In this document: piece by piece, positions 6,900 through 39,660 of the stretch | Layout: the number at the start of each line of letters is the position of its first letter | How positions within the stretch are numbered: position 1 is the first letter of the stretch | Origin: a virus | Strand: one strand, 5' to 3' | DNA length: 64,000 nt | IMG/VR virus record: IMGVR_UViG_3300007619_000129 | Location: 24,567 to 88,566 of that record | Position numbers and translations under genes: made by a program | Notes under the pieces: model-generated | Told to the model about the DNA's origin: nothing | Databases searched by the model: none | The model's input: the letters and a program-made list of their open reading frames with translations, nothing else

Positions 6900-7388
6900 T
6901 TAATATTGCAAAATCCACTTATCGGCTTGGATAACTAAAGCAATATCTTGAGCATCACTCGATGAATAGTCTAAATCGTTGAAATTAGCATCTTCGACCC
7001 AAGCTCCCCTTCCGTCCCACAGTTCTACAACATTGCCCATTGGATCAAGCAATTTCATTTGAATATTTCTTTTATAAAAATCGGCATAACCATCTCGTCC
7101 CGATACTGCTTCGCTTGTCAACCTTAGCCATTCCATCAATTGTTGTGCTCCTGATGGTGAAATAGCATCATACATTGTTACTGATACTGTATCAAAACTC
7201 CTTTTTCCAGCGAGCCATCTTTTATCATTGATATAATCAATTGTTATTTTTTCATGAGTAATATGTGGCCTTGCTGCTGTTTTCATCAAATAAGCATCAA
7301 TTCCTTCAATTTGAAAAATCCATCGATATTTTCTTTTTGGCTCATATCGATTAGCCAACATATCAGTAACTCCAAGTGTTTCAACCAT
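6900..7388 (-). CDS. Tail tube protein (T4 gp19-like)
   Basis: 162 residues, close to T4 gp19 in length. It forms the inner tube of the contractile tail. The pattern RWIFQIEGIDAYLMKTAARP near the N-terminus, VTMYDAISPSGAQQLMEWL in the middle and a C-terminal beta-rich DIALVIQADKWILQY fit the gp19 tube fold. CGGAG lies about 11 bases before the ATG. It follows two sheath genes, as gp19 follows gp18 in T4. A shorter, diverged relative lies at 27581-27976 in the head module. Confidence 0.88.
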   Translation of the reverse strand: MVETLGVTDMLANRYEPKRKYRWIFQIEGIDAYLMKTAARPHITHEKITIDYINDKRWLAGKRSFDTVSVTMYDAISPSGAQQLMEWLRLTSEAVSGRDGYADFYKRNIQMKLLDPMGNVVELWDGRGAWVEDANFNDLDYSSSDAQDIALVIQADKWILQY

Positions 7389-19347: not shown

Positions 19348-21033
19348 TTATATTTCCTTTTTCTTCAAAATTAAAAATGGCTCCATTTTCATTAAGTTAT
19401 CAGTTCCTACCTTTTTACTTAAGTGACTCTTACTAAATCTCATATAAAACGTATCAACATGTTTAAATCCTATCGAAATAGCTATTGATTTCATTGTATC
19501 TAATATTTCATAATTTTTATGTTTTTTGCATACATTGAATATAAAAATACCATTATCATTTAGACAATTATAAATTTTTTTCACCGTATTGAACCAATAC
19601 TCATTTATAAAGTATTCATAACCATTGTTATATGCTTGTTTTTTATCATTACTATAAACTTCTTTTGAAAAATATGGCGGAGAACTCATTGCCAAATCAA
19701 CATTTTCAATGGGGTTGAAATTCTCTGACCTTTCCTCTATTAAAGATGCATTTTTCAATCCAAAATCTTCAATAATTTTTTTTCCATTATTTATTGTGGT
19801 TTCCCACGGATCTACTCCAATATATTTAATATTTCCACAAGACATTGCACCCAAAAGTCTTTGATTAAATCCTGAAGAAAAATCATAAACACTTCCGCCA
19901 TTCGGTAAGAATTTTTTATATATAAATTTTGCAACAGTAGGTCTAAAATTAGACGTAACTGGAACTAATCTCATACTTCTAAATCCTTGTCTTAACATAT
20001 TCCCCGTCATTGTAAATGGATGAGAAACTCCTCTATAATAAAAGGTTATTCCCAATCTATTTTTTATTACTTTCATTAATGTTTCATCATCATTAAATGC
20101 CTCAACCATACTTCTTGATTTTTTATTATCCTCTTTAACAAAAAAGAAATGTGGAGAATAAGTTTTAAAAATAAGGTTTCCTATTGTTGAACCAGAACTT
20201 ATAATTTTCTTTTCTTTGTCAAATATTGATTCAACATCAAAATTACACAACTTTTCCCAATCCTTATCTAATTCCTCTTTTGTATAGACCGGAAAGGGAA
20301 AATATCTAGATCGAAAATAATCAAATAAAAACTCAGCAACCTCTTCTTTTTTATTTTCACTCATTTCAAATATGTTTTTAACAGTAAGAGGAATGTTTTT
20401 ATATCTGATTATATAATCAGTACCATATCTTGATAAATCATTATTGTTTCTTGTAAATTTAGTTTCTTTTTTATTCCTTTTTAAAATACTTTCTGTGTTT
20501 GCCCTCACACTTTTCTTTTTTTTTGTTATTATCATAGGCATTTTTAGTGCATTTTTATCAAAAAATTCTACTTTTTTGCCTTCCTCCATAAACAAAATCA
20601 ACTCCATTGTATAAGTGGCATGTGTTTCCTCTTTAATAAAATTAAAACCATATTTCTTATAAAATTTTATTGCTATTTCATTAATTTTTGCTACTCTAAG
20701 ACGAATATTTCTTTTTTCTTTTTTTGCTTTGTCAATTAGGGCACTTAAAAGTTTTGAGCCAACACCTTTCCCGCGCACCGCGGAATCAATCGCCATTTTT
20801 TCAAGTAAAAAATATGGTTCCTTTTTATATCTTTTCCAAATCAAATAACCCACTATATTATCATTTTCACTAATAGCATAAATAACCCTGTCTTCATTTG
20901 TTCTTTTTACAATAGAAGAACGATATATTGGTCCCATTATTTTTTGCTTTGTATACGGTTTTGTCAAGTCAATTATTTTTTGAACCGTTTGATCGTTTTT
21001 AACATTGATTTTCTCTGAAATGTCAAAATCCAT
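19348..21033 (-). CDS. GNAT acetyltransferase - DNA methyltransferase fusion
   Basis: 561 residues. Residues about 1-150 are a GNAT domain with the acetyl-CoA loop MAIDSAVRGKGVGSKLLSAL and the usual NEIAIKFYKKYGF ending. The C-terminal part (about 350-561) is a SAM-dependent methyltransferase: SNFRPTVAKFIYKKF, then motif I-like VYDFSSGFNQRLLGA, IGVDPWE, and the catalytic SSPPYF at 450-455. An S-P-P-Y motif is typical of amino-methylating DNA enzymes, including N4-cytosine types. The middle (150-350) is unassigned. It may modify phage DNA or a base in two steps, but the substrate is unknown. It lies in a homing-endonuclease island. Confidence 0.8.
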   Translation of the reverse strand: MDFDISEKINVKNDQTVQKIIDLTKPYTKQKIMGPIYRSSIVKRTNEDRVIYAISENDNIVGYLIWKRYKKEPYFLLEKMAIDSAVRGKGVGSKLLSALIDKAKKEKRNIRLRVAKINEIAIKFYKKYGFNFIKEETHATYTMELILFMEEGKKVEFFDKNALKMPMIITKKKKSVRANTESILKRNKKETKFTRNNNDLSRYGTDYIIRYKNIPLTVKNIFEMSENKKEEVAEFLFDYFRSRYFPFPVYTKEELDKDWEKLCNFDVESIFDKEKKIISSGSTIGNLIFKTYSPHFFFVKEDNKKSRSMVEAFNDDETLMKVIKNRLGITFYYRGVSHPFTMTGNMLRQGFRSMRLVPVTSNFRPTVAKFIYKKFLPNGGSVYDFSSGFNQRLLGAMSCGNIKYIGVDPWETTINNGKKIIEDFGLKNASLIEERSENFNPIENVDLAMSSPPYFSKEVYSNDKKQAYNNGYEYFINEYWFNTVKKIYNCLNDNGIFIFNVCKKHKNYEILDTMKSIAISIGFKHVDTFYMRFSKSHLSKKVGTDNLMKMEPFLILKKKEI

Positions 21034-21510: not shown

Positions 21511-22965
21511 TTATATTTTCTTTTCATAAAGATAATTTCCACACCCATATATCCTATATACACCATTTTCTTCCGCAACTTGCTTTTCTGTTTTTCCTGG
21601 TTGGGCTCGAAACATAAATCTATTATATCTTATTGTACCATCTGTATACCAAAAATCTATACCAGTATCTGAAACCCATTCAAATCCACAAGACCTATAC
21701 ACATTGCCGTCTCCCCACCTCAAATCAGAATATGTTATTATTTTTTTATATCCCTTATCACTCATCCACTTCTCCACACTTTTCATTAATTTACTAAATC
21801 CACCTATTACCTGGACATTTAAGGCTGTTGCGAATCTTGATATTTCAATATTGTTTTTATATTTCTTATGGTTTGGCTTTCTAAGGGCTATTGCACAAAC
21901 TAATTTATTCTCATAATAAAGTCCGAAACTTATTTTAGATCTTGTATAACCCGATATATGATTCTCTTCAAAAAATAGTTTAGAAATTTTTCTATGAATT
22001 TCTCTTATTTCACATTTTCTTGCACCAATTTTTATATCGGTTAACCCTAATTTGTTTTTTATAATTGATTTTACTATTTCGTTCTTCTCAATCCATTCAT
22101 CAGAAAATATCTGAATAAGATTTATTTTTTTCTGTCTGCACAACAACATTTTATCTCTATGAGAATTTTTGTCCCAATACTTGTTTTTATTATTATTATT
22201 TTCCATATGCCAATAAAGTCCGTGATATTCAATTCCAACCATTTTATCTGGAATAAAAACATCAATTTCTTTAGGGGCAATTGATTTTCTATCACTTTGT
22301 ATTGTTTTTATGCCTAATGACTTTATAAAATCTAATACCTCCACTTCAGCCCTGGAGGTTATACAAGGATAACATTTAATACACAAAGACTTTCTCTCAA
22401 ACGCTTGTAAAGTTTTTCTTTGTTCTGTACCACACTTTTTGCAAATAATATCAAGATATTGATGTTGTCTTGAATAATATTCACTATATTTTGTTTTAAC
22501 TTCAAATTCTAAACCCCTTTCCAAAAGCCTTAATTTATACTCTTCCTCACTAAGAGACTTCTTTTTCTTAATCTTATTAATAGATTCAGGAGTATGTTTT
22601 TTCCCATAAAATCCATTTTTCTCACCATAATGAACGTGCTTTAATATTCTTGGATCGGTTTCTTTAGTTTTGTTTTTATTCCACGCTTCAGCTTTTCCAC
22701 CAATCTTGCCACCTTCTGATGACGCCTTACAAGAATGTTCCTTACAATATTTTTTATATGTGAATCTAATATATCTTGTTTCTCTTATGCAAGACCTTTC
22801 AGCACATATCGGTCTTTTGCCATTATAAAAATATTTGTTTGTATATTCTAATGATGATATTTTGTGTTTCCTAAGGTGATAAGAAAATTCTTTCAAATCA
22901 TTAAAAATAACATTACAGATATTACAAATTATTGGTGGTTTTCTTCCTTGATATTTTATAGTCAT
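21511..22965 (-). CDS. Homing endonuclease, Vsr-like nuclease with GNAT-like C-terminus
   Basis: 484 residues. Order of parts: a C2H2 finger (CNICNVIFNDLKEFSYHLRK), a NUMOD3-type stretch (GEKNGFYGKKHTPESINKIK), a zinc ribbon (CKKCGTEQRKTLQAFERKSL), a Vsr-fold nuclease core with SRAEVEVLDFIKSLGI, KEIDVFIPDKMVGIEYHGLY and FSDEW, and a C-terminal alpha/beta domain (ISRFATALNVQVIGGFSKLM) like Mom/GNAT folds. This resembles the EDxHD-type phage homing nucleases. It starts after the major capsid terminator, in a structured 200-base gap. Its target is probably nearby in phages without it. Confidence 0.82.
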   Translation of the reverse strand: MTIKYQGRKPPIICNICNVIFNDLKEFSYHLRKHKISSLEYTNKYFYNGKRPICAERSCIRETRYIRFTYKKYCKEHSCKASSEGGKIGGKAEAWNKNKTKETDPRILKHVHYGEKNGFYGKKHTPESINKIKKKKSLSEEEYKLRLLERGLEFEVKTKYSEYYSRQHQYLDIICKKCGTEQRKTLQAFERKSLCIKCYPCITSRAEVEVLDFIKSLGIKTIQSDRKSIAPKEIDVFIPDKMVGIEYHGLYWHMENNNNKNKYWDKNSHRDKMLLCRQKKINLIQIFSDEWIEKNEIVKSIIKNKLGLTDIKIGARKCEIREIHRKISKLFFEENHISGYTRSKISFGLYYENKLVCAIALRKPNHKKYKNNIEISRFATALNVQVIGGFSKLMKSVEKWMSDKGYKKIITYSDLRWGDGNVYRSCGFEWVSDTGIDFWYTDGTIRYNRFMFRAQPGKTEKQVAEENGVYRIYGCGNYLYEKKI

Positions 22966-23166: not shown

Positions 23167-25059
23167 TTAGATAGTATTCATGTCAAGAACAGTAACTGTT
23201 CCATAAAAATCGCTTCTTACCATCTTCTTACCATATCTCGTCATGACACCTTTGCGTGGCGTGAAATCTTCTGGTCCAAAGATTGTTGGGGTAACGATAA
23301 GTGGTACATATGGTGCATACACATATCCAGTTTCAAGATATGTTCCACCTTTGTATCCAAGTAGAACCTTATTTCGTGGGAAATATGGATCTTTATAGAC
23401 CTGGAATCGTTGAGTTAGTGAACCAACTCTTTCGGCTCCGATTGAGAATGGAGTTGCTACTTGACCATTACCATCAAGGTTATAATTACTTCGGTATAGA
23501 GTGGTCTGTTCAAGGATTGTACAGACATCTGGTGAAGTTACAACAAAGTTGGCTGAACCACGAAGTGTTTTTCTGTGAATAGTGTTAGCAGCATCAATAA
23601 TGGTCTCAACAAGAGTCTCGTACCATTCTCTAACTGTACCAGTGAATGCTGGACCTGGATCAAGAGTGCTGGTTAGCTGTACTAGTGAACCATTTTCTTT
23701 GTTCACAAACTTACCCGGCGATCTACTCCAATATAGGTTAGCTCCATTAGCTTCTGTTAGAAGATCATTAAGAATTTCTCTATCAATATCAACAGCAACC
23801 TGTTCAGATAGAATCTTAGTTAGCTCAACCTCAGCATCAAGACTGTGGAAAGCATTAAGATCCTGAGCAAGCTCTGGAGACCATCGAGCTCGTAGCTTTC
23901 GTGAAGTGGCTACAACGCTGATCTGTTCAATCTTAATGTCAATTTCAGGGATTGTTGGGGTTGGAGTCGCACCGAAGTCAGACTCAAAGCTTGGAATAAC
24001 AAGAGTGTCACCATCAGTTCCACCAATATTATTCACGTCAGACTTTACCATGCTTACGTGGATATTGTCTGAACCAATCTGTGGTACAGTTCCACCATTA
24101 GAAAGTCGTAGAACAAACTTAATGTGATCACCACCAAGTGGGTCTGGTGTCCAAGTTGAACCGTCCCAATCTCCTCTCTCGTTTAGTCGACGAAGATTTA
24201 GAACTCCAGCACCAGCCTGATATTTCTCTCCCCAAGCAACAGCTCCCTGTACAGATGGAAGATCTGTAATGGTAATTTGCTTGACTTCCTGTAGATCGCC
24301 ATTACTGATTTTGCTTGTAAGCTCAGCAGTACTGATGAAAAGGAAAGTAAGATCAAGAACGTTGTCTTCAAGATCTCTCTGAATATCAGGGTCAAAGCCA
24401 GCCAAGCGAGCATTGGTACCTGTAAAGTCAGAGGAAGTATCAACAACTGAAGCTGATGTGAAGGCTTCGCTTGCGCCAGTGAAGGCACCAAGTCCAAGAC
24501 CATCGCCAGCTACTGAACCAGTACCTACGGTTAGAGAACCGCTGTGTACTTTAGTATATCCAGTACCAACCAAGTCATATTGTCCACCTGTTGCAAGTGA
24601 ACCTGAACGGACACCAGCACCAGCTGGATTGTTATAAATTGACTGACCGGCTTGGTATGTATTGTCAGTAGCTGATGCTTCACCACCTACATTGTTACCA
24701 TAAGTGTAATCAAGGTAGAAAAGTAATCCAGCTGGAAGACTCATTGGCTGAATTGACACAAGATCATTAGCCACTAGCCCACCGAATACTCGACGTACAA
24801 TTGGGAACGCAACATTTGTAAAACCTCGGATATTGCCAGAAGATGTTAGGGCTCCTGCTCCGGTTGATAGGGATGAAGTCTCTCGAAGTAGCTCAGCAGC
24901 TTGGTTTTCAAGCAATCGAGCCATATTTTCTCGGTCATATCCCCCAAGATTTTTTAGTAGACCAGTTCTGGCCCATTTTTCAACAAGACGACGAGACTCC
25001 GCACCAACGTGCCGTTCTCTAATGTCTTCTGTTAATTTCTCTAGTGAAAACTTACTCAT
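23167..25059 (-). CDS. Major capsid protein (T4 gp23-like)
   Basis: 630 residues. The N-terminal 60 are a helical delta-domain (ERHVGAESRRLVEKWARTGL, ARLLENQAAELLRE), followed by GFTNVAFPIVRRVFGGLVAN, LVSIQPMSLPAGLLFYLDYT and a large beta-rich body, as in gp23. A gp21-type cleavage site (L/I-x-E) can be read as LRE at 58-60 before TSS. AGGAG lies six bases before the ATG, and a strong terminator follows. Arginine is often CGN here rather than the AGA common in neighbours, as is usual for very highly expressed genes. Confidence 0.92.
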   Translation of the reverse strand: MSKFSLEKLTEDIRERHVGAESRRLVEKWARTGLLKNLGGYDRENMARLLENQAAELLRETSSLSTGAGALTSSGNIRGFTNVAFPIVRRVFGGLVANDLVSIQPMSLPAGLLFYLDYTYGNNVGGEASATDNTYQAGQSIYNNPAGAGVRSGSLATGGQYDLVGTGYTKVHSGSLTVGTGSVAGDGLGLGAFTGASEAFTSASVVDTSSDFTGTNARLAGFDPDIQRDLEDNVLDLTFLFISTAELTSKISNGDLQEVKQITITDLPSVQGAVAWGEKYQAGAGVLNLRRLNERGDWDGSTWTPDPLGGDHIKFVLRLSNGGTVPQIGSDNIHVSMVKSDVNNIGGTDGDTLVIPSFESDFGATPTPTIPEIDIKIEQISVVATSRKLRARWSPELAQDLNAFHSLDAEVELTKILSEQVAVDIDREILNDLLTEANGANLYWSRSPGKFVNKENGSLVQLTSTLDPGPAFTGTVREWYETLVETIIDAANTIHRKTLRGSANFVVTSPDVCTILEQTTLYRSNYNLDGNGQVATPFSIGAERVGSLTQRFQVYKDPYFPRNKVLLGYKGGTYLETGYVYAPYVPLIVTPTIFGPEDFTPRKGVMTRYGKKMVRSDFYGTVTVLDMNTI

Positions 25060-30630: not shown

Positions 30631-31287
30631 TTATTTCCCCCACGATAGAATGTCATTTGCAATTCTATCTATTCTGTCAGATTTTGTAAAAACTTTGTTA
30701 AGATATTCATCAATGCCTTCTGTCAAATAAACAAAAGCACCTGGAGTAGAAGGTTCAGAAACAACATCCCAACAAACAAGTTGAAAGTCTTCCTGAACAA
30801 CCTGATATCCGTTTGAGTCAGATTGTGTTGAACCAACCCCCCTTGAAGATATTCCTACAGTTATATTTTGTTTAATAAGTCCTTTTAACTCTTTACCGTT
30901 TGTAGTATGATTTAAAATCTCTAAACGTCCCCTAATAATACCTTTGTTGTCCATCTCTGCCTCAACAATAACATGAGAAGCAGTTTTCAATTCAATTATT
31001 GAGTTGTCAGTATGGTCTAGTGCACCAAGTGCCCTTCTTTCTCTTATTAATTTTTGATAATTTCTTAGTTCTTTCTCCAGAATATCTCTTGGATAAATTC
31101 TTCCATTTTGATTTAGGGTATCTGCTCTTTGTAAAATTCCCTCTAGAAACATTACCTCTTCACCGTTCACCTGTTCCACAATTACTTTTTTGTCCTCTAA
31201 AGTACATCCCTCAATCAAAACACCTCTCTCTATTGGAGCAAAAGAAAGGTTAGACGAAACTGTATTAATTGTCTTTATTAACGACAT
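30631..31287 (-). CDS. Prohead core protease (T4 gp21-like)
   Basis: 218 residues, close to T4 gp21. Key features are the start of the protease fold MFLEGILQRADTLNQNGRIY, the His block RRALGALDHTDNS, and the Ser block KQNITVGISSRGVGST, a herpes-protease-type pair. It matures scaffold and capsid within the prohead. A GGGAGG ribosome site precedes the ATG, which overlaps the preceding gene by 10 bases. It sits between portal and scaffold genes, as in T4. Confidence 0.9.
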   Translation of the reverse strand: MSLIKTINTVSSNLSFAPIERGVLIEGCTLEDKKVIVEQVNGEEVMFLEGILQRADTLNQNGRIYPRDILEKELRNYQKLIRERRALGALDHTDNSIIELKTASHVIVEAEMDNKGIIRGRLEILNHTTNGKELKGLIKQNITVGISSRGVGSTQSDSNGYQVVQEDFQLVCWDVVSEPSTPGAFVYLTEGIDEYLNKVFTKSDRIDRIANDILSWGK

Positions 31288-32115: not shown

Positions 32116-35100
32116 TTATTCTTCCTCTTTTTCCTCTTTTATAATGTGATCTAACTCATTTTCCACAATCAGATCATCTAATTTTTTTTCTCCCTCTTCT
32201 TCAAAAATTATCTCAATATCATCAACATCTCTACTTTCTGATTCCTTAAGAATATTCCTCTTATTAATATTTAGGTCCTTTTTCATTGAATTAAGAGCTT
32301 TTTTAATTTCTTTAGTCATTCGTGCCTGCTGAAACATCATCTTATCTAAGACATCCCTATTCGTTCTAGCATTAATTTCGTGAAAAGGCCCCTCTGCTTC
32401 AAACCTTTCATCATTAGCATCATAAGAATCACTCTCAAGAGAATTCATTCTTGACAAATCAGGCATAGAAGTAGCATACGGACCCTTACCATGCTTTAGT
32501 CTTTTTCTGTTGTATTGAACTCTTTGTGATTGACTTATTGGATTTCTTTTTACAGGAACTTTTTCCTCTTCGCTTTCATCCAAATCAAATTCATCATCTT
32601 CTTCTTCAATGTCTAACATTAATGATTTTTTATTTTTTTCTTCTCCAGCGAAAAGGTCTTCTTCTTCCTCTTCTTCCCCTCCCTCTTCTTCTCCACCACC
32701 TGGACCTTCTTCACCGCCTAATCCCCCTAATCCACCTTCTTCTTCACCACCAATTTCTTCTTCTCCACTCCCAAGAGCCTCTAATCCTGGACCTCCACCA
32801 CCACCAAGTCCTCCACCCCCAAGTCCTCCACCACCGCCTTCTCCACCAAGTGCTCCAGGTTCAGTAATTTGATCAAGGATTGCTTGTCTTTGTAGATCTT
32901 TTATCTGTTCTTCTTCTACTTTTTTAATTTCTTCTTTGGTTAAGTTAAAAACTTCACGATAAACATATCCATTTGATAACAAATTCTCAGGCTTTGATTG
33001 TGCAATCTCAAATCTACGACCAACAAGCTCCAATTTTTGTTGTTGTGCTGTATTAGACGGATTAGATAAAGCAATTTTAAAATCAATTAAATCTTCTTCA
33101 TCATATCCGTTAGCTGCTAAGTGAATTGCTGCTATTTTATTTAATTCTGAAATTATAACTTTCTGAATAGCTTGTATAGCACGCGAGAATCTAACGTCCT
33201 CCTGAGCTAAATTCGCCTTCGAACTGTTATGAACAATGTTTCCAGAAGAAGTGGCAAAATTATGCCATCTTTTAACGGTCAAATCATAAACCTCAATTGG
33301 AAATTTTAAATTAATGTCTCTAACACTTATAACCTTATGGTTATTTGGGGTTTTTTCTTTAAGTTTTGGAATTAAAATTTCTTTTTTAAAATCTCTCCAC
33401 CCACTAAAACCATTTTCCTTTAATAAAGTTTTTACATGTCGTAATCCAACTGGTGGAACTAAATCAAATCTTCCATCTCTATACTTGAATACGTCTCTAT
33501 GAGTAAGATCATTTTCTACGCAGTAACCAATTAACCAATCATAAGTGTAAGTTTTATACTTCCTCTTACTATGATGATTTTCTCCAAAAATTTTAGCCCT
33601 AACTTCAGGTCTTTGAAGTATTTCTTTATTTTGTTTAGTTTTAATTTTTCTATATTCAGAATCTTCCCAATTTTTCTTCATAACTTCAGACATAACATCT
33701 GAAATCTCATCTCCATGAATCCATTCATATAGTGGCCTACCAGGAGTTGTGGTTTCATATTTCATTTGCTTTGAAGACATTTCCTTATGATCTTCAGAAC
33801 TAAGCCATTTTCTGTGAGCCTTTATACTTTTTTCTTCAACCCGAATATTCCTTAATAAATCATGACATTTCTCGCTATTAGCCCATAAAAGCTGATTTTT
33901 TCTTCTTCGCTCTTCTATTTCAGGATTGCCCATAATATGAGTCATAAAATGGTTGGCATGATATTCAAAGTGTTCTTTCTTCCCCATTTCAACTAATAAA
34001 TCAGGATTATTATTTCTTTTATTAAAAGAAGAATGATGAATAACTCTATCATTCAAGGGCAATTTATAATTTTGTGTTGATTCAAAAACTAATTTATGGG
34101 TATAAATCCATTTTCCGTCTTGGAGAATTTGTTCATAACCTTCAATTTTATCTCCTTTTTCTTTAGAAGAAATTTTTCTATAAAGTGGCATCAAAGACTC
34201 TCCAACCATAATCTCATCTGCCCTTTTATATTGCCCATTTCTTAATAAAAATGGATGATTTTCTGTACACAATATTTTTTCACCATTATCTAAAACAACT
34301 TCAGTTAATTTATTAACTGTTTTTGTTGGTCCTGCCCATTCAATTTCACCTGGTTTTATATTTCCCTGTAAATCAGATGAATAAACCCAATTTTTAATTC
34401 CATTTCTATATTCTTCAGAGATTTCTTTAATTGACAATTCTCTACCGTCTAATAATGGAATTTTAGTGTCGGGATGTAAACAAAGCTGTTCATCAAATCC
34501 AATATATGCTTTTGGAACTTTAAGAGCAGCAAATAACTTTTTCTGAATATATTCAACATCATCAATAGCAGTAGTGTTTGTACCACCGGGTAATGTGTCA
34601 ATTCTTGTACCTCCTTCAGTACCTCGAATAGGAATAAAATAATCAATATCTACTGACCAAGGATTATAACGAAGGTCTACTCGACCGGTATCTTTATCAA
34701 TAACTTCTTGTGACTTAAGCTGTGTTCTTGCATTCTCAATGACATTTGGAACATCATCTGGCGGAATTCCAGCAACATCAATATAGAAAACTCTTCTTTC
34801 TGGAGCTCTGATAACCCTATAAACAAGCATTGCATCTTCAATAAGAATAAGTTGTCTCCAAATTCTTCTAGCCGATTCCAAAATAGAAGAACCATAAGGT
34901 AAAAATGCATCATTCCCTTGTAATCTAAAGTGTGCAACTTGCCAATTTTGAAGAACTTGGTTTCCCACAGTTACCCACCTAAATCTTACGGACATTGGAT
35001 CGTTTGGATCCCAACCCTCTTCTCTTTCTATCTCGTTTACAGGAATTGGATAAGCATTTATTACACCATATCCATCAGTAACATCAATAAAGATGAAAAA

Positions 35101-37896
35101 ATCTCCATATTTGCATAAATTTCTCACCCAACCCAACAGTACGAATTCAATATTAAGTGTGTCGTAAAACAGTTCCTCAAGTAATTCTTTTATTTTAGCA
35201 TTTTCTGAAAATATGTGAAGAGAACGACCCTTTTCATCAGGCGCTACCGATTCTTCCGCATGAACCTGAAGGGCTGATGCTATCTCAGGTGTATATTCCA
35301 TTTCCGAATTTTTTATTATTACAAATTTTTGTGGTTCACAACTAAAATTCTCATAATTTAGATCGCAATCAGAACCAGCTGCAAAATTATGGTATTTATC
35401 TACAGTAAGGTTATAAACCATTTCCTTTTTATCTAAAAAATCTACACTTATAACTTTATGATTATTATAGTTTTGAACCCAATCATAATAAGACCTAAAT
35501 CCTTCTTTAATAATTCTTGCTAAAATTTTATTTTGACTAGTTCCAACAGTGCTTGCCAATTCTCTATATGTCATTCCCTCTTTATAAGAATTACAAATAT
35601 CCTGATAGGAAATTGATTGATCAATTAATTCTTTCCTTCCCACCCCTTCAACAACACTAAATCCATTATCTTCTTTAAGATTAGACCATGTTCCATAACC
35701 ATGGGAAAAAATTCTTCTACGTATTGCATTTGGAGTACAAGATAATTTTTGACATAATTCATAAATGTTTTGACAATCTTTTGATTTTTCAATAATATCT
35801 TCTATTTCAGGACTTGTAGATTCTTTAATAATGTTATTGTCAGTTATGTGTTGTTGTATTTCATTTCTTTTTGACTTAAAGTCAACCCAATTTTTAAAGC
35901 CCCTTTCTCTTAATCTTCTTTTTATAACATTTTGATCAACCTTAAGAGCTTTTTTTACCTTGCTCATTACAAAATTAAGCTCTATTGCTAACTCAAGAAT
36001 TTTTTCAAAAGTAATATCAGTTCTTTTTGAAGGATTATTTTCTCGCATCCATTTTGAATGCTTATTATTTGGTTTACCAAATTTATTTTTGTTATTAAGT
36101 TGAGCATGATATTTGTAATGCTCAATCCTATCCATTATCATTAAATTTTCAAGTTTATTATTATCTTTATCAAAATCAATATGGTGAACAACCTCATTAT
36201 CCTCTATTTTTCTTACAAAATGCTCTATAACAAATCGATGTTCTCTCTGCCACCCCCCATATTTTTCCATTGTATAAATGTATTTGTATCCATTAGAATC
36301 TAATTTTTTAATTGTAAATGGCATAAGTGCCATTCCTGATTTTAGATCTTTTGCCTGAACATAATCTCCACCTCTCAATAAAAACTTATGGTCTAATGTA
36401 GAATCAATATGTCCTCCATCAAAATGAACTCTAACTAATTTTTGTTTTTCTCCATTTCTTGAAAGTCTAGGACTATGAGCTTCTGCTATAACAATTTTGT
36501 TATTTTCATGATCGTAAGAATAAACATGAAATCTTTCACCATTTTTATATTTTTCCGAAAGCTCTTTAATGGTAAAAATACCATTAGTAGTATAAATTTT
36601 TGTATCTCCCCTTACACAAAAATCCGAATATCTTGAATTATGTACAATAATGCTATCTGTTGCGAAATTTTCATATCCATCTACTGTTAAATCTCCAACT
36701 TCTAATTGGTTAAATTTTTCAACAGAAACAACTTTATGATTATTTAATCTCAATTCTTTTTGTTTAAAATCAGACCAAGATTCATATCCCTGTTTTTTCA
36801 AATACTTACATAAAGTAAGTGGATTTATATCAAGAATTTCAGAAGCTTCTTTTTGGTTTAATGTACAACCATATCCAAAAACAGAAATAAGATTCTCAAA
36901 AGAACATACTAAATCAAAATTCTTATTTTTTCTTTGTTTTGCCTTTTTTGATATTTTATCTCTAATTTCACTTAAATTTGTTGGATTATTTTTTAATAAA
37001 AATTCTCTTCTTTTTTTGATTACATCTTCTCTTGAATTATTTTTAGCTACATTTTTTGCCCTAGATCCATCATCTCTTTCCCAGGCTTTTTTAATCCCAT
37101 TTATCATTCTTTCTCTAATTTCTAAATTTTTCCATTGTTCTTTAGTATTTTTTCCATGTAAAATTAAATGATCATGAGCATCCATAATTTGAAGGTTTTC
37201 TGGATTATTGTCTTGAGACAAAAAATTTATATGATGAACATGTTCACTTTTTTTTATTTTTCTTTTAAAGAACCATTCAGCAATTAATTTGTGTTCTGAC
37301 TGCCAACCATTCCAATTATTGTCTTTTCTATTAAAAGTTAATATACTTCTATAACCAAAAAATTTCTTTCCATCTTTATCCGATTTTCCTTCAAACCTTT
37401 TTCTATAAAAAGGCATCATAGAATCACCTGAACTTAAATTTTCCGCATCCTTATATGAACCATCTCTCATCATACACGGATGATCAGATGTACAAATCAA
37501 ATATTTCCCATTATCAAAAGTAATTTTTACAGTATCTTTAGTGCCTGAAATTCTTGGAGTGTGTGCCCATGCTGGAACAATACATCTCTTTTCATGATCA
37601 TAAGAATAAACAATAAATTTTTCTCCATTTGGATATTTTTCTATTAACTCTTTTAATGTCAAAAACCCTTCAGGTCCAGGAATGGCTATTTTTGTATTAA
37701 TATCAATACACAATCTATCGTATTGACCGTAAGCATTTAGTGCATTCCCGTATACACCAGTAGTAGATTTTCGGAATACATCAAGGGCACTACTTGTGAT
37801 TTCGCCTGTTCTAAAGCCTCTTACTTTTCGCTTTACAATAGGTCCGGACCTAAATAGTCTTGTTAATCTTTTGAATAAATCGTTTTTTTGAGCCAT
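32116..37896 (-). CDS. Portal protein (T4 gp20-like) interrupted by three inteins
   Basis: The precursor has 1926 residues; removing the three inteins leaves 712. The mature protein reads through TGVYGNALNAYGQYDRL, SRYSDF, EMEYTPEIASALQVHAEES, and FVLLGWVRNLCKYGDFFIFI to KVPKAYIGFDEQL and AQEDVRFSRAIQAIQKVII, matching the gp20 wing and clip. The C-terminal end adds a Gly/Glu low-complexity stretch (about residues 1670-1735) that T4 lacks. The portal forms the DNA channel at one vertex. AGGAG precedes the ATG. Splicing is required for function. Confidence 0.9.
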   Translation of the reverse strand: MAQKNDLFKRLTRLFRSGPIVKRKVRGFRTGEITSSALDVFRKSTTGVYGNALNAYGQYDRLCIDINTKIAIPGPEGFLTLKELIEKYPNGEKFIVYSYDHEKRCIVPAWAHTPRISGTKDTVKITFDNGKYLICTSDHPCMMRDGSYKDAENLSSGDSMMPFYRKRFEGKSDKDGKKFFGYRSILTFNRKDNNWNGWQSEHKLIAEWFFKRKIKKSEHVHHINFLSQDNNPENLQIMDAHDHLILHGKNTKEQWKNLEIRERMINGIKKAWERDDGSRAKNVAKNNSREDVIKKRREFLLKNNPTNLSEIRDKISKKAKQRKNKNFDLVCSFENLISVFGYGCTLNQKEASEILDINPLTLCKYLKKQGYESWSDFKQKELRLNNHKVVSVEKFNQLEVGDLTVDGYENFATDSIIVHNSRYSDFCVRGDTKIYTTNGIFTIKELSEKYKNGERFHVYSYDHENNKIVIAEAHSPRLSRNGEKQKLVRVHFDGGHIDSTLDHKFLLRGGDYVQAKDLKSGMALMPFTIKKLDSNGYKYIYTMEKYGGWQREHRFVIEHFVRKIEDNEVVHHIDFDKDNNKLENLMIMDRIEHYKYHAQLNNKNKFGKPNNKHSKWMRENNPSKRTDITFEKILELAIELNFVMSKVKKALKVDQNVIKRRLRERGFKNWVDFKSKRNEIQQHITDNNIIKESTSPEIEDIIEKSKDCQNIYELCQKLSCTPNAIRRRIFSHGYGTWSNLKEDNGFSVVEGVGRKELIDQSISYQDICNSYKEGMTYRELASTVGTSQNKILARIIKEGFRSYYDWVQNYNNHKVISVDFLDKKEMVYNLTVDKYHNFAAGSDCDLNYENFSCEPQKFVIIKNSEMEYTPEIASALQVHAEESVAPDEKGRSLHIFSENAKIKELLEELFYDTLNIEFVLLGWVRNLCKYGDFFIFIDVTDGYGVINAYPIPVNEIEREEGWDPNDPMSVRFRWVTVGNQVLQNWQVAHFRLQGNDAFLPYGSSILESARRIWRQLILIEDAMLVYRVIRAPERRVFYIDVAGIPPDDVPNVIENARTQLKSQEVIDKDTGRVDLRYNPWSVDIDYFIPIRGTEGGTRIDTLPGGTNTTAIDDVEYIQKKLFAALKVPKAYIGFDEQLCLHPDTKIPLLDGRELSIKEISEEYRNGIKNWVYSSDLQGNIKPGEIEWAGPTKTVNKLTEVVLDNGEKILCTENHPFLLRNGQYKRADEIMVGESLMPLYRKISSKEKGDKIEGYEQILQDGKWIYTHKLVFESTQNYKLPLNDRVIHHSSFNKRNNNPDLLVEMGKKEHFEYHANHFMTHIMGNPEIEERRRKNQLLWANSEKCHDLLRNIRVEEKSIKAHRKWLSSEDHKEMSSKQMKYETTTPGRPLYEWIHGDEISDVMSEVMKKNWEDSEYRKIKTKQNKEILQRPEVRAKIFGENHHSKRKYKTYTYDWLIGYCVENDLTHRDVFKYRDGRFDLVPPVGLRHVKTLLKENGFSGWRDFKKEILIPKLKEKTPNNHKVISVRDINLKFPIEVYDLTVKRWHNFATSSGNIVHNSSKANLAQEDVRFSRAIQAIQKVIISELNKIAAIHLAANGYDEEDLIDFKIALSNPSNTAQQQKLELVGRRFEIAQSKPENLLSNGYVYREVFNLTKEEIKKVEEEQIKDLQRQAILDQITEPGALGGEGGGGGLGGGGLGGGGGPGLEALGSGEEEIGGEEEGGLGGLGGEEGPGGGEEEGGEEEEEEDLFAGEEKNKKSLMLDIEEEDDEFDLDESEEEKVPVKRNPISQSQRVQYNRKRLKHGKGPYATSMPDLSRMNSLESDSYDANDERFEAEGPFHEINARTNRDVLDKMMFQQARMTKEIKKALNSMKKDLNINKRNILKESESRDVDDIEIIFEEEGEKKLDDLIVENELDHIIKEEKEEE
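33226..34482 (-). mobile_element. Intein 3 in the portal (HNH-like, possibly degenerate)
   Basis: 419 residues, precursor 1139-1557. It starts with Cys (CLHPDTKIPLLDGRELSIKE), has block B TENH and ends IVHN before Ser, so splicing residues are complete. The HNH region (VIHHSSFNKRNNNPDLLVEM) keeps the His pair and the Asn, but the usual Asp or Asn after HH-I is Ser, so the nuclease may be decayed. One GWRDFK module is present near the end. Confidence 0.92.
35308..36618 (-). mobile_element. Intein 2 in the portal (HNH-type, unusual end)
   Basis: 437 residues, precursor 427-863. It starts with Cys (CVRGDTKIYTTNGIFTIKEL), has block B TLDH, an HNH nuclease at 569-597 (VVHHIDFDKDNNKLENLMIM) and three helix modules of the type GFKNWVDFK. 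The end differs from the other two: an extra stretch of about 17 residues after NFAAGS and IIKN in place of IVHN, so the penultimate His is Lys. It starts only six codons after intein 1. Confidence 0.9.
36637..37710 (-). mobile_element. Intein 1 in the portal (HNH-type)
   Basis: 358 residues, precursor 63-420. It starts with Cys (CIDINTKIAIPG), has block B TSDH, an HNH nuclease at about 219-247 (HVHHINFLSQDNNPENLQIM) and one WSDFK helix module at 365-380, and ends IIVHN before Ser. All residues expected for splicing (Cys1, block B His, penultimate His, terminal Asn, Ser+1) are present. The endonuclease ligands look intact. Confidence 0.92.
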
Positions 37897-37971: not shown

Positions 37972-39660
37972 CTACTCAAGTAACCATTTCCATTTTTTTC
38001 CTAATCTTCCTTGGACCATACCTCTTTTGTTCAAGGAGCCGATTTTACTTGCCCCACTACCTGGAAGTGGTATAAATATTGAGTACTCTTCTTGTTTTCC
38101 TGTTGTAACGTCCGTATTTGATTTGATATCTTCTATTTTAGTAGTTTTAACACCCATTGAATCAAGCATTATTTTTTTTGTTTCTCTTGCTCTTTTGTCA
38201 ACTGTTCCACTTTCCCCAATAAGCCAAGAACCAATAGCATAAGACATAACTAAATCATCATTATAACCCCTCATAGCTTCTGCTTTATCCGGGTTAGTCC
38301 AAACAAAGGTTCTCAGCTCTTTCAGTAGCCTTGTGCTGTATATTTTTATGGTTGTATTCCTAAGGGACTCTTCTAATTGAGAGATGGCCTGATTCCTTGT
38401 GCGTCCATTGGTGTCAAATCCTGCTTTATCCAAATCTTGTCTATATGTAAATTCGTTTATTGAAATAATTTTGCTATCTCTATAAAAAATATTTGGATAT
38501 TCTAAATCTCGTAACTTTATTAAGGATGCATGCCCATGCTGATTTCTTTCGGGTGCTACTAGTGCATTATTATATTTTCTTCCTACTTCATCTAATAATT
38601 CAGCAAATCTATCAGGGGCAATTTTTCCTTTATATTCAGCAACACACTCACTTGAATCAAGATCTATAACAGGAAATGCTGAATAATCTTTTCCATATCC
38701 ACTTGCGACATCTGCTGAAATCACATAGTAATGACCTTTTACTGGATAATTCCAAATCCACAACCCACCATCTGATCCTTCTTTTCTAACTGGGTTTTTA
38801 GTTGATTTCTCAAGCATTTTCATAATGTGTGCACTTACCAAAGTATCACCAGACGATAAGAAATCACATTCGTATTCTTGTGCGATTTCTTTTTCGTCCA
38901 TATCTTTCGTTTGACTTTCAAACCATGCATCGTCTCTAGCGGGAACGCATCGCCAATCCAATTTGATTCCATTAAAGTTATTACACCCATCTTCTCCTGG
39001 TTTTTGGTTTTCCCATTTTTTTGCTGAGCTTTCATATAATTTATGAAAAAGATTACCTACTCCTCTAGGTGTTGAAAGTAAAATACACCTACCTCCAGTA
39101 GAGATAGTTGGTTTAAGTCCCAACCACAGTTTATCCATATTTTTAATAATGGCTGCCTCATCAACAATCAATAAGGAAAGGGCCTCTGAAACCCCTACAT
39201 CATCCGATGTTGCTACAGCTTTTATAATTGATCCCCTGGATGATTCCATAGTATGTACAGATTCTTTTTCAACTTTCAGATATTGACGCATCCATTTAGG
39301 GAGGTTTGAAATAACAACCTTTACTTTTCTCAAAAGATTTTTTGCTACATCCTGTTTTGTAGCTACAATTAGTATATTTGCTGGTGGATGAAACAAAAAC
39401 ATCCAAGTAGCATATGCTGCTACAAGGGTTGACATTCCAACCTGTCTTGATTTTAGTATAATATTATTTTTATATGTTAGAAAATCATTAATGCAATCTT
39501 CCTGAAATTGCCAAAGCTTAAATGGCCTTACAGACATAACATTTTCGTAGCCATTTTTACTAACAAACGATACTACTTTACAGTATTCATTTATAAAGTA
39601 TATTGGATTTCGAGCACACTTAATGAGCTCTCCTGCTTGTTTCTTTTGTACTTTTGCCAT
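37972..39660 (-). CDS. Terminase large subunit (T4 gp17-like)
   Basis: 562 residues. The ATPase has SRQVGMST at 71-78 in place of Walker A, LLIVDEAA as Walker B (163-170) and LLSTPRG as motif III (194-200). The nuclease has ISADVAS (Asp317), APERNQHG (Glu371) and RGYNDDLVMSY near 475. It packages DNA into the prohead via the portal. The canonical Lys of Walker A is replaced by Met; a nearby Lys/Arg may serve instead. The gene starts directly on the stop of the 125-residue gene and precedes the portal gene. Confidence 0.9.
   Translation of the reverse strand: MAKVQKKQAGELIKCARNPIYFINEYCKVVSFVSKNGYENVMSVRPFKLWQFQEDCINDFLTYKNNIILKSRQVGMSTLVAAYATWMFLFHPPANILIVATKQDVAKNLLRKVKVVISNLPKWMRQYLKVEKESVHTMESSRGSIIKAVATSDDVGVSEALSLLIVDEAAIIKNMDKLWLGLKPTISTGGRCILLSTPRGVGNLFHKLYESSAKKWENQKPGEDGCNNFNGIKLDWRCVPARDDAWFESQTKDMDEKEIAQEYECDFLSSGDTLVSAHIMKMLEKSTKNPVRKEGSDGGLWIWNYPVKGHYYVISADVASGYGKDYSAFPVIDLDSSECVAEYKGKIAPDRFAELLDEVGRKYNNALVAPERNQHGHASLIKLRDLEYPNIFYRDSKIISINEFTYRQDLDKAGFDTNGRTRNQAISQLEESLRNTTIKIYSTRLLKELRTFVWTNPDKAEAMRGYNDDLVMSYAIGSWLIGESGTVDKRARETKKIMLDSMGVKTTKIEDIKSNTDVTTGKQEEYSIFIPLPGSGASKIGSLNKRGMVQGRLGKKWKWLLE

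Follow-up and report, generated by a model that had tools for sequence, protein, structure and literature searches.

The window, a stretch of 64,000 nucleotides taken from an 88.6-kb IMG/VR virus record, encodes a precursor of the T4-type portal (gp20, the ring for DNA entry) that very probably carries three full-length HNH inteins at separate homing sites (a, b and e), is converted by class 1 splicing into a portal of 712 amino acids, and acquired its inteins in separate arrivals. The relatives of this portal are metagenomic contigs, and compared loci are denoted below by L numbers.

The portal gene and its three inteins

The gene 20 precursor (32116..37896, minus strand, stop codon included; 1926 amino acids) is a single open frame with zero internal stops that belongs to PHROG 213 (portal); over the whole ORF, Pfam reports Portal_T4 at 208.8 bits and Intein_splicing at 162 bits in three stretches. 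Upstream lies the terminase large subunit gene (gp17-like, 37972..39660, minus strand), in which no intein was found, and the portal gene is followed by those of a head maturation protease (gp21-like, 30631..31287, minus strand, PHROG 207) and the major capsid protein (gp23-like, 23167..25059, minus strand), so that terminase, portal, protease and capsid succeed one another in the T4 gene order. Profile, T4-like gene order and portal fold all identify the product as a T4-type gp20, the fold being taken from a modest AlphaFold model of an intein-free portal (pLDDT 64) that is too weak for the placement of sites a-c in three dimensions. When the viral record was searched with the splicing profile or intein a as query, the portal inteins were the sole matches. 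Beyond the capsid gene are a Mom-like/acetyltransferase protein (window 21511-22965) and a protein with acetyltransferase and weak methyltransferase matches (window 19348-21033), both possibly concerned with DNA modification.

The boundaries that the first-pass annotation gave for the three inteins are exact to the residue: intein a (residues 63-420, 358 amino acids; 36637..37710, minus strand) is inserted between extein residues 62 and 63, intein b (residues 427-863, 437 amino acids; 35308..36618, minus strand) between extein residues 68 and 69, and intein e (residues 1139-1557, 419 amino acids; 33226..34482, minus strand) between extein residues 343 and 344. The span 33226-37710 runs from the start of the first intein to the end of the third, and the gene is longer. 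With splice points marked by a slash, the junctions read YDRL/CIDINT...IIVHN/SRYSDF for intein a, SRYSDF/CVRGDT...FVIIKN/SEMEY for intein b and FDEQL/CLHPDT...NIVHN/SSKAN for intein e. Scored singly, inteins a, b and e match Intein_splicing (PF14890, curated cut-off 35.8 bits) with 56.5, 49.3 and 68.0 bits, and the intein N-terminus model TIGR01445 has three matches in the portal ORF; at an E value of 1e-47, chance is not an issue.

Removal of the three inserts leaves an extein of 712 amino acids in four parts: the N-terminal part (37711..37896, minus strand; residues 1-62, ending in GQYDRL), which can be aligned with intein-free relatives; the micro-extein SRYSDF (36619..36636, minus strand; residues 421-426), which is the sole portal sequence separating inteins a and b; the portal core (34483..35307, minus strand; residues 864-1138), with which a scan recovered 80 relatives at 71-81% identity; and the C-terminal part (32119..33225, minus strand; residues 1558-1926), which has a Gly/Glu-rich tail. 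The G+C content is 27-30% in the inteins versus 36-38% in the long exteins.

All three inteins have Cys at position 1, a TxxH block B (TSDH in a, TLDH in b, TENH in e) and Asn before Ser at the downstream junction, as had been noticed at first pass, but intein b ends in IKN/S and not in the VHN/S of inteins a and e. Asp or Cys at F:4 and His at F:13 of block F are common, not obligatory, in class 1 inteins; the residues at these two positions are Asp and Glu in intein a (GDLTV, with the His replaced by Glu in YENF), Asn and His in intein b, and Asp and His in intein e (YDLTV and HNF). In intein b, some 16 additional residues also separate block F from block G, forming an extra loop before block G, and G:6 is Lys, the resulting KN/S end being a known kind of variation (PMC4031507). 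These departures recur in part at site b elsewhere (Asn at F:4, the extension and a terminal Gln in L092b and L108b; the extension and KN/S in the site-b intein of L149) and are thus lineage traits rather than fresh damage.

The catalytic His/Asn/His residues of an HNH endonuclease are present in each intein, which supports the original designation of all three as HNH inteins as far as these residues go; the HNH_3 profile (cut-off 24.8 bits) is passed by intein b alone (36106..36186, minus strand, HHIDFDKDNNKLENLMIMDRIEHYKYH, 30.4 bits), the motifs of intein a (37156..37236, minus strand, HHINFLSQDNNPENLQIMDAHDHLILH, 14.8 bits) and intein e (33958..34038, minus strand, HHSSFNKRNNNPDLLVEMGKKEHFEYH, 15.5 bits) scoring under it. 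The AlphaFold model of intein b (mean pLDDT 86) predicts a HINT fold, with HINT parts mostly at 93-98 and an HNH-like part and helical repeats sitting between them; the extra stretch is a loop with pLDDT of about 49 near block G, and the final strand is at 93. The best matches of this model among solved structures are the inteins NrdJ-1, Ssp DnaB and PI-PfuI. The profile of the intein family matches solved inteins and, weakly, the HNH homing endonuclease 1u3e. For structure prediction, an alignment of the a+b tandem was abandoned, as individual inteins became divided between its two copies.

Predicted splicing and homing

We infer splicing, endonuclease activity and order of arrival along the following lines. 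The entire precursor would be translated through, each intein would fold as its own HINT domain, and class 1 excision would proceed from an acyl shift at Cys1 through transfer to Ser+1 to cyclization of the terminal Asn, with joining of the flanks into the 712-amino-acid portal. By sequence alignment, site e corresponds approximately to residues 390/391 of T4 gp20 and falls inside the portal tunnel loop (T4 residues 374-398, PMC4493910), a location at which an intein left in place should keep the subunit from forming a functional ring. In a mixed infection, each HNH domain would cut the matching empty portal allele and repair would copy the intein in, and each intein of the window would have come from a lineage already resident at the same site in other phages.

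Between the window's site-b intein (W_b) and L092b, pN and pS are 0.27 and 0.80 in the splicing part and 0.23 and 0.71 in the HNH part, and at site a pN is well below pS in the splicing part, all of these being rough ratios because synonymous changes are near saturation. The endonuclease parts of inteins a and e vary more between alleles. The low pN versus pS at site b, endonuclease part included, fits a working element.

It is possible, if unlikely, that at least one of the inteins, most likely b, no longer splices efficiently and that slow or conditional splicing sets the amount of working portal. Intein b combines Asn at F:4, Lys in place of the penultimate His and a loop of low model confidence beside block G, and the loss of such residues accompanies slow splicing in some inteins (PMC4031507). 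Some inteins without His at G:6 or ending in Gln splice well, however (PMC4031507), the lineage of intein b retains its departures in several phages under constraint, and selection would act against an unspliced essential portal.

Occupied and empty sites in related portals

Inteins have entered the gp20 gene repeatedly, at about 14 places, which makes it a hot spot. Relatives were gathered by scans with alignments of the inteins of sites a, b and e; inteins b and e as single-protein queries had given no IMG/VR relatives, whereas the alignment queries succeeded. Close relatives of the inteins lie mostly inside T4-type portals, and the portals fetched have up to four inteins per gene. Numbered on the window's extein, insertions are found after residues 62 (a), 65 (i), 68 (b), 73 (c), about 88 (h), 132 (k), 208 (f), 221 (g), 285 (d), 310, about 314, 334, 343-346 (e) and 349 (n), with sites a, i, b and c all within residues 62-73. 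Of the 129 distinct portal ORFs that were fetched, an intein N-terminal domain is absent from 63 and occurs once in 34, twice in 17 and three times in 15; these figures do not measure prevalence, since for many loci the inteins served as bait. The truncated portals of L112 and L153 each have one further intein, recognized by its C-terminal end, which brings them to four. The a and b pair with its six-residue extein recurs on the separate contigs L092, L108 and L110, and in L108 a site-c intein is added after SEMEY, resulting in three inteins in a row, six and five residues apart. Three inteins are also present in the portal of the huge phage LR756508, and at two of the sites concerned the window has none.

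A stronger proposition would count gene 20, with some 14 sites in about 290 residues, as one of the viral genes most densely packed with intein sites, and would hold that the runs with exteins of five or six residues are not independent, ordered splicing or cross-pairing taking place between neighbours and overlapping homing targets forcing a stepwise invasion; we consider this quite unlikely.

Several of the fetched portals have features of their own. Within a single clade, the boundary of the site-e intein lies at either 343 or 344, a shift of one codon (window 33226-34482 versus L086, L087, L112, L116 and L118). The intein after residue 208 of the L153 portal (L153:1772-2854) has LAGLIDADG-like motifs, read by eye, in place of HNH, and more than one intein type therefore seems to invade the gene. 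A site-a intein with Ser instead of Cys at position 1 is found in L124 (4048-5157), and inteins ending in Gln without a penultimate His are found in L092 (5640-6956), L108 (4672-5985) and L087 (6861-8069). In L149 and L150 (approximately 7200-7250), the portal frame changes just past the site-b intein (SEMETMAEI...), which may be an indel, an assembly error or a real break. In L124 (9282-11030) and L125 (9900-11567), an intein N-terminal region is also present in a gene that lies downstream of the portal and may encode the prohead protease. A putative portal intein of Streptococcus phage GXN1 was rejected, this intein being in the DNA polymerase.

In a phylogenetic tree, 59 splicing domains cluster according to insertion site well beyond chance, with 22 label changes versus 42 in shuffles. 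The site-a intein of the window (W_a) clusters with seven other site-a alleles (support 100/98), W_b clusters with L092b and L108b (99/94), and W_e clusters with L113e (100/95) and L086e (99/91); the three window inteins are not each other's nearest relatives. A constraint placing W_a, W_b and W_e together is rejected (p-AU 2e-46, a cost of 216 log units). In the tree with cellular inteins, a single clade of all tested portal inteins is rejected (p-AU 0.011), as is a clade of sites a, b, c and e (p-AU 0.011); a clade uniting sites a and b is tolerated (p-AU 0.11). When cellular inteins are added, the window's site-b lineage stands beside inteins of gyrase, RtcB and dCTP deaminase (88/84). In the tree of the 59 splicing domains, site a stands beside site c (96/87), and the Pro-first inteins of site d stand beside those of site k (99/93). 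The deep branches of the intein tree are weakly supported.

The best reading of these relationships is that the three inteins would have arrived separately, by homing, at three established sites. The first-pass annotation had taken them for copies of one lineage that spread within the gene, a proposal that the same-site grouping and the rejected constraint do not support. Duplication of one intein into new sites inside this portal gene is very unlikely: it could appeal to the homology of all three inteins (a and b share 42% identity across 190 alignment columns), to the tolerated clade of sites a and b, and to the sister groups a/c and d/k, which suggest movement between sites, but each window intein has its nearest relatives at the same site elsewhere, and both the three-intein clade and the broader portal clades are rejected. 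The blocks originally quoted as common to the three, IKE(L/I)xE(E/K)Y-NG and SxxLMP, fit loosely (intein a has LKELIEKYPNG and DSMMP), and the motifs in common also occur outside portals: the SLMP block is found in GyrA, GyrB and RtcB inteins too, and is thus a mark of the family, not of intragenic copying. On this comparison recent copying is strongly disfavoured, although the inteins of sites a and b may have a deep kinship, and some movement between portal sites (a/c and d/k) is plausible.

A widespread family of portal inteins has Pro at position 1 and occupies the site after extein residue 132, and also site d (L086:4006-4614, L102:7569-8210, L112:804-1328, L153:245-1516 and L179-L258). 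Pro replaces Cys/Ser at position 1 in 73 of 76 parsed copies, Cys is present at block F:4, and the parsed copies have Cys at +1, most with an SN/C end. These inteins resemble class 3, but without the Trp (mostly Tyr or Phe) and the Thr of the WCT motif, and their Ser at G:6 recalls class 2 (class definitions in PMC4031507 and PMC7664689). In the tree, the first four of them are placed amid the Cys1 inteins of portals, and the family may therefore represent an independent change of splicing mechanism. This Pro-first family with its block-F Cys may be a more novel lead than the three-intein portal.

Empty sites are exact in the relatives: 72 intein-free portals align through all three junctions without a break, in agreement with the earlier claim that removal of the inteins leaves a continuous gp20-like protein. 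L005 aligns gap-free (76% identity over 457 amino acids) and has DRLSRYADFSEMEYTPEI and EEALSSKANLAQED at positions where the window has inteins. These alignments fix the splice junctions and rule out the reading of the inserts as normal domains; homologues with the segments as normal domains had been named at first pass as an observation that would count against inteins, and the 72 relatives are without them. In intein-free relatives the residues of SRYSDF are contiguous with their flanks, and its Arg and Asp do not vary across 50 intein-free portals.

Inteins a and b are homologous and six residues apart, and L108 repeats the pattern with three, an arrangement in which the N-half of a might pair with the C-half of b, removing both inteins together with SRYSDF and leaving a portal minus six residues. 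Such cross-pairing is highly improbable, since a product that skips the invariant Arg and Asp should be harmful and each intein has complete N- and C-parts of its own. One could also suppose that the inserts belong to a longer portal as domains that work without removal, or are an assembly artefact; the one long open frame alone would permit this, but it is hardly credible in view of the relatives without inserts, the complete splice-site residues and the presence of the same junctions on contigs from different metagenomes.

At site a, the +1 residue is Ser in all 8 occupied alleles and Ala in 56 of 85 empty alleles (L005-L084, extein position 63; Fisher p 8e-5, a contrast confounded by kinship among the phages). 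Ala is unable to act as the +1 nucleophile, and is found there as if protecting site a from intein a.

Significance and comparison with known systems

Gene 20 is essential and serves as a standard marker when T4-like phages are surveyed in nature. The one to four inteins in gene 20 of many uncultured relatives would break gene prediction, and marker surveys could miss them. Native tandem inteins with six-residue exteins are ready substrates for minimal-extein studies, and inteins 15-18 bp apart are a natural test of homing with overlapping neighbour targets; inteins at neighbouring positions in haloarchaeal MCM interfere with one another's homing (PMC10643990).

The portal extein is of the same family as T4 gp20 (3ja7, 6uzc; PMC4493910), with a fold match and the same gene order, but T4 gp20 has no intein and the extein described here has a Gly/Glu-rich C-terminal extension. 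Inteins of the same family as those of the portal are found in bacterial and archaeal GyrA, GyrB and RtcB (HNH inteins; L161-L178; NCBIfam NF052663), which have the SLMP block and are 28-39% identical to intein e, but they occupy other host genes and sites and fall on separate or neighbouring branches of the tree.

Among archaeal genes with multiple inteins, haloarchaeal MCM has four intein sites and Haloquadratum walsbyi polB has three large inteins, the latter an example of a gene with three endonuclease-bearing inteins (PMC10643990). Like the portal, these are essential genes that each accommodate several endonuclease-bearing inteins at separate sites, with movement between species (PMC10643990); MCM differs in being an archaeal replication gene with LAGLIDADG inteins, whereas the portal is a phage structural gene with HNH inteins, two of its sites being 18 bp apart. 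A report on mycobacteriophage inteins (PMC5050341) describes seven insertion sites in TerL, and inteins in portals (PORT) as well. According to that report, inteins are enriched in packaging genes, portals included, with many sites per family, as observed here; the seven TerL sites it describes are spread across phages, whereas three inteins are found here within one T4-type gp20. The TerL of crAss-like phages also has more than one intein in one packaging gene (two in one ORF), but differs from the portal in the gene, the Hint-Hop type of intein and the smaller number of inteins (PMC7886860).

No description of multi-intein T4-type portals was found in the open-licence literature. Genes with multiple inteins and inteins in portals are already known; as far as the open literature was searched, what is new is that the T4-type portal offers inteins many sites, and that inteins lie five or six residues apart.
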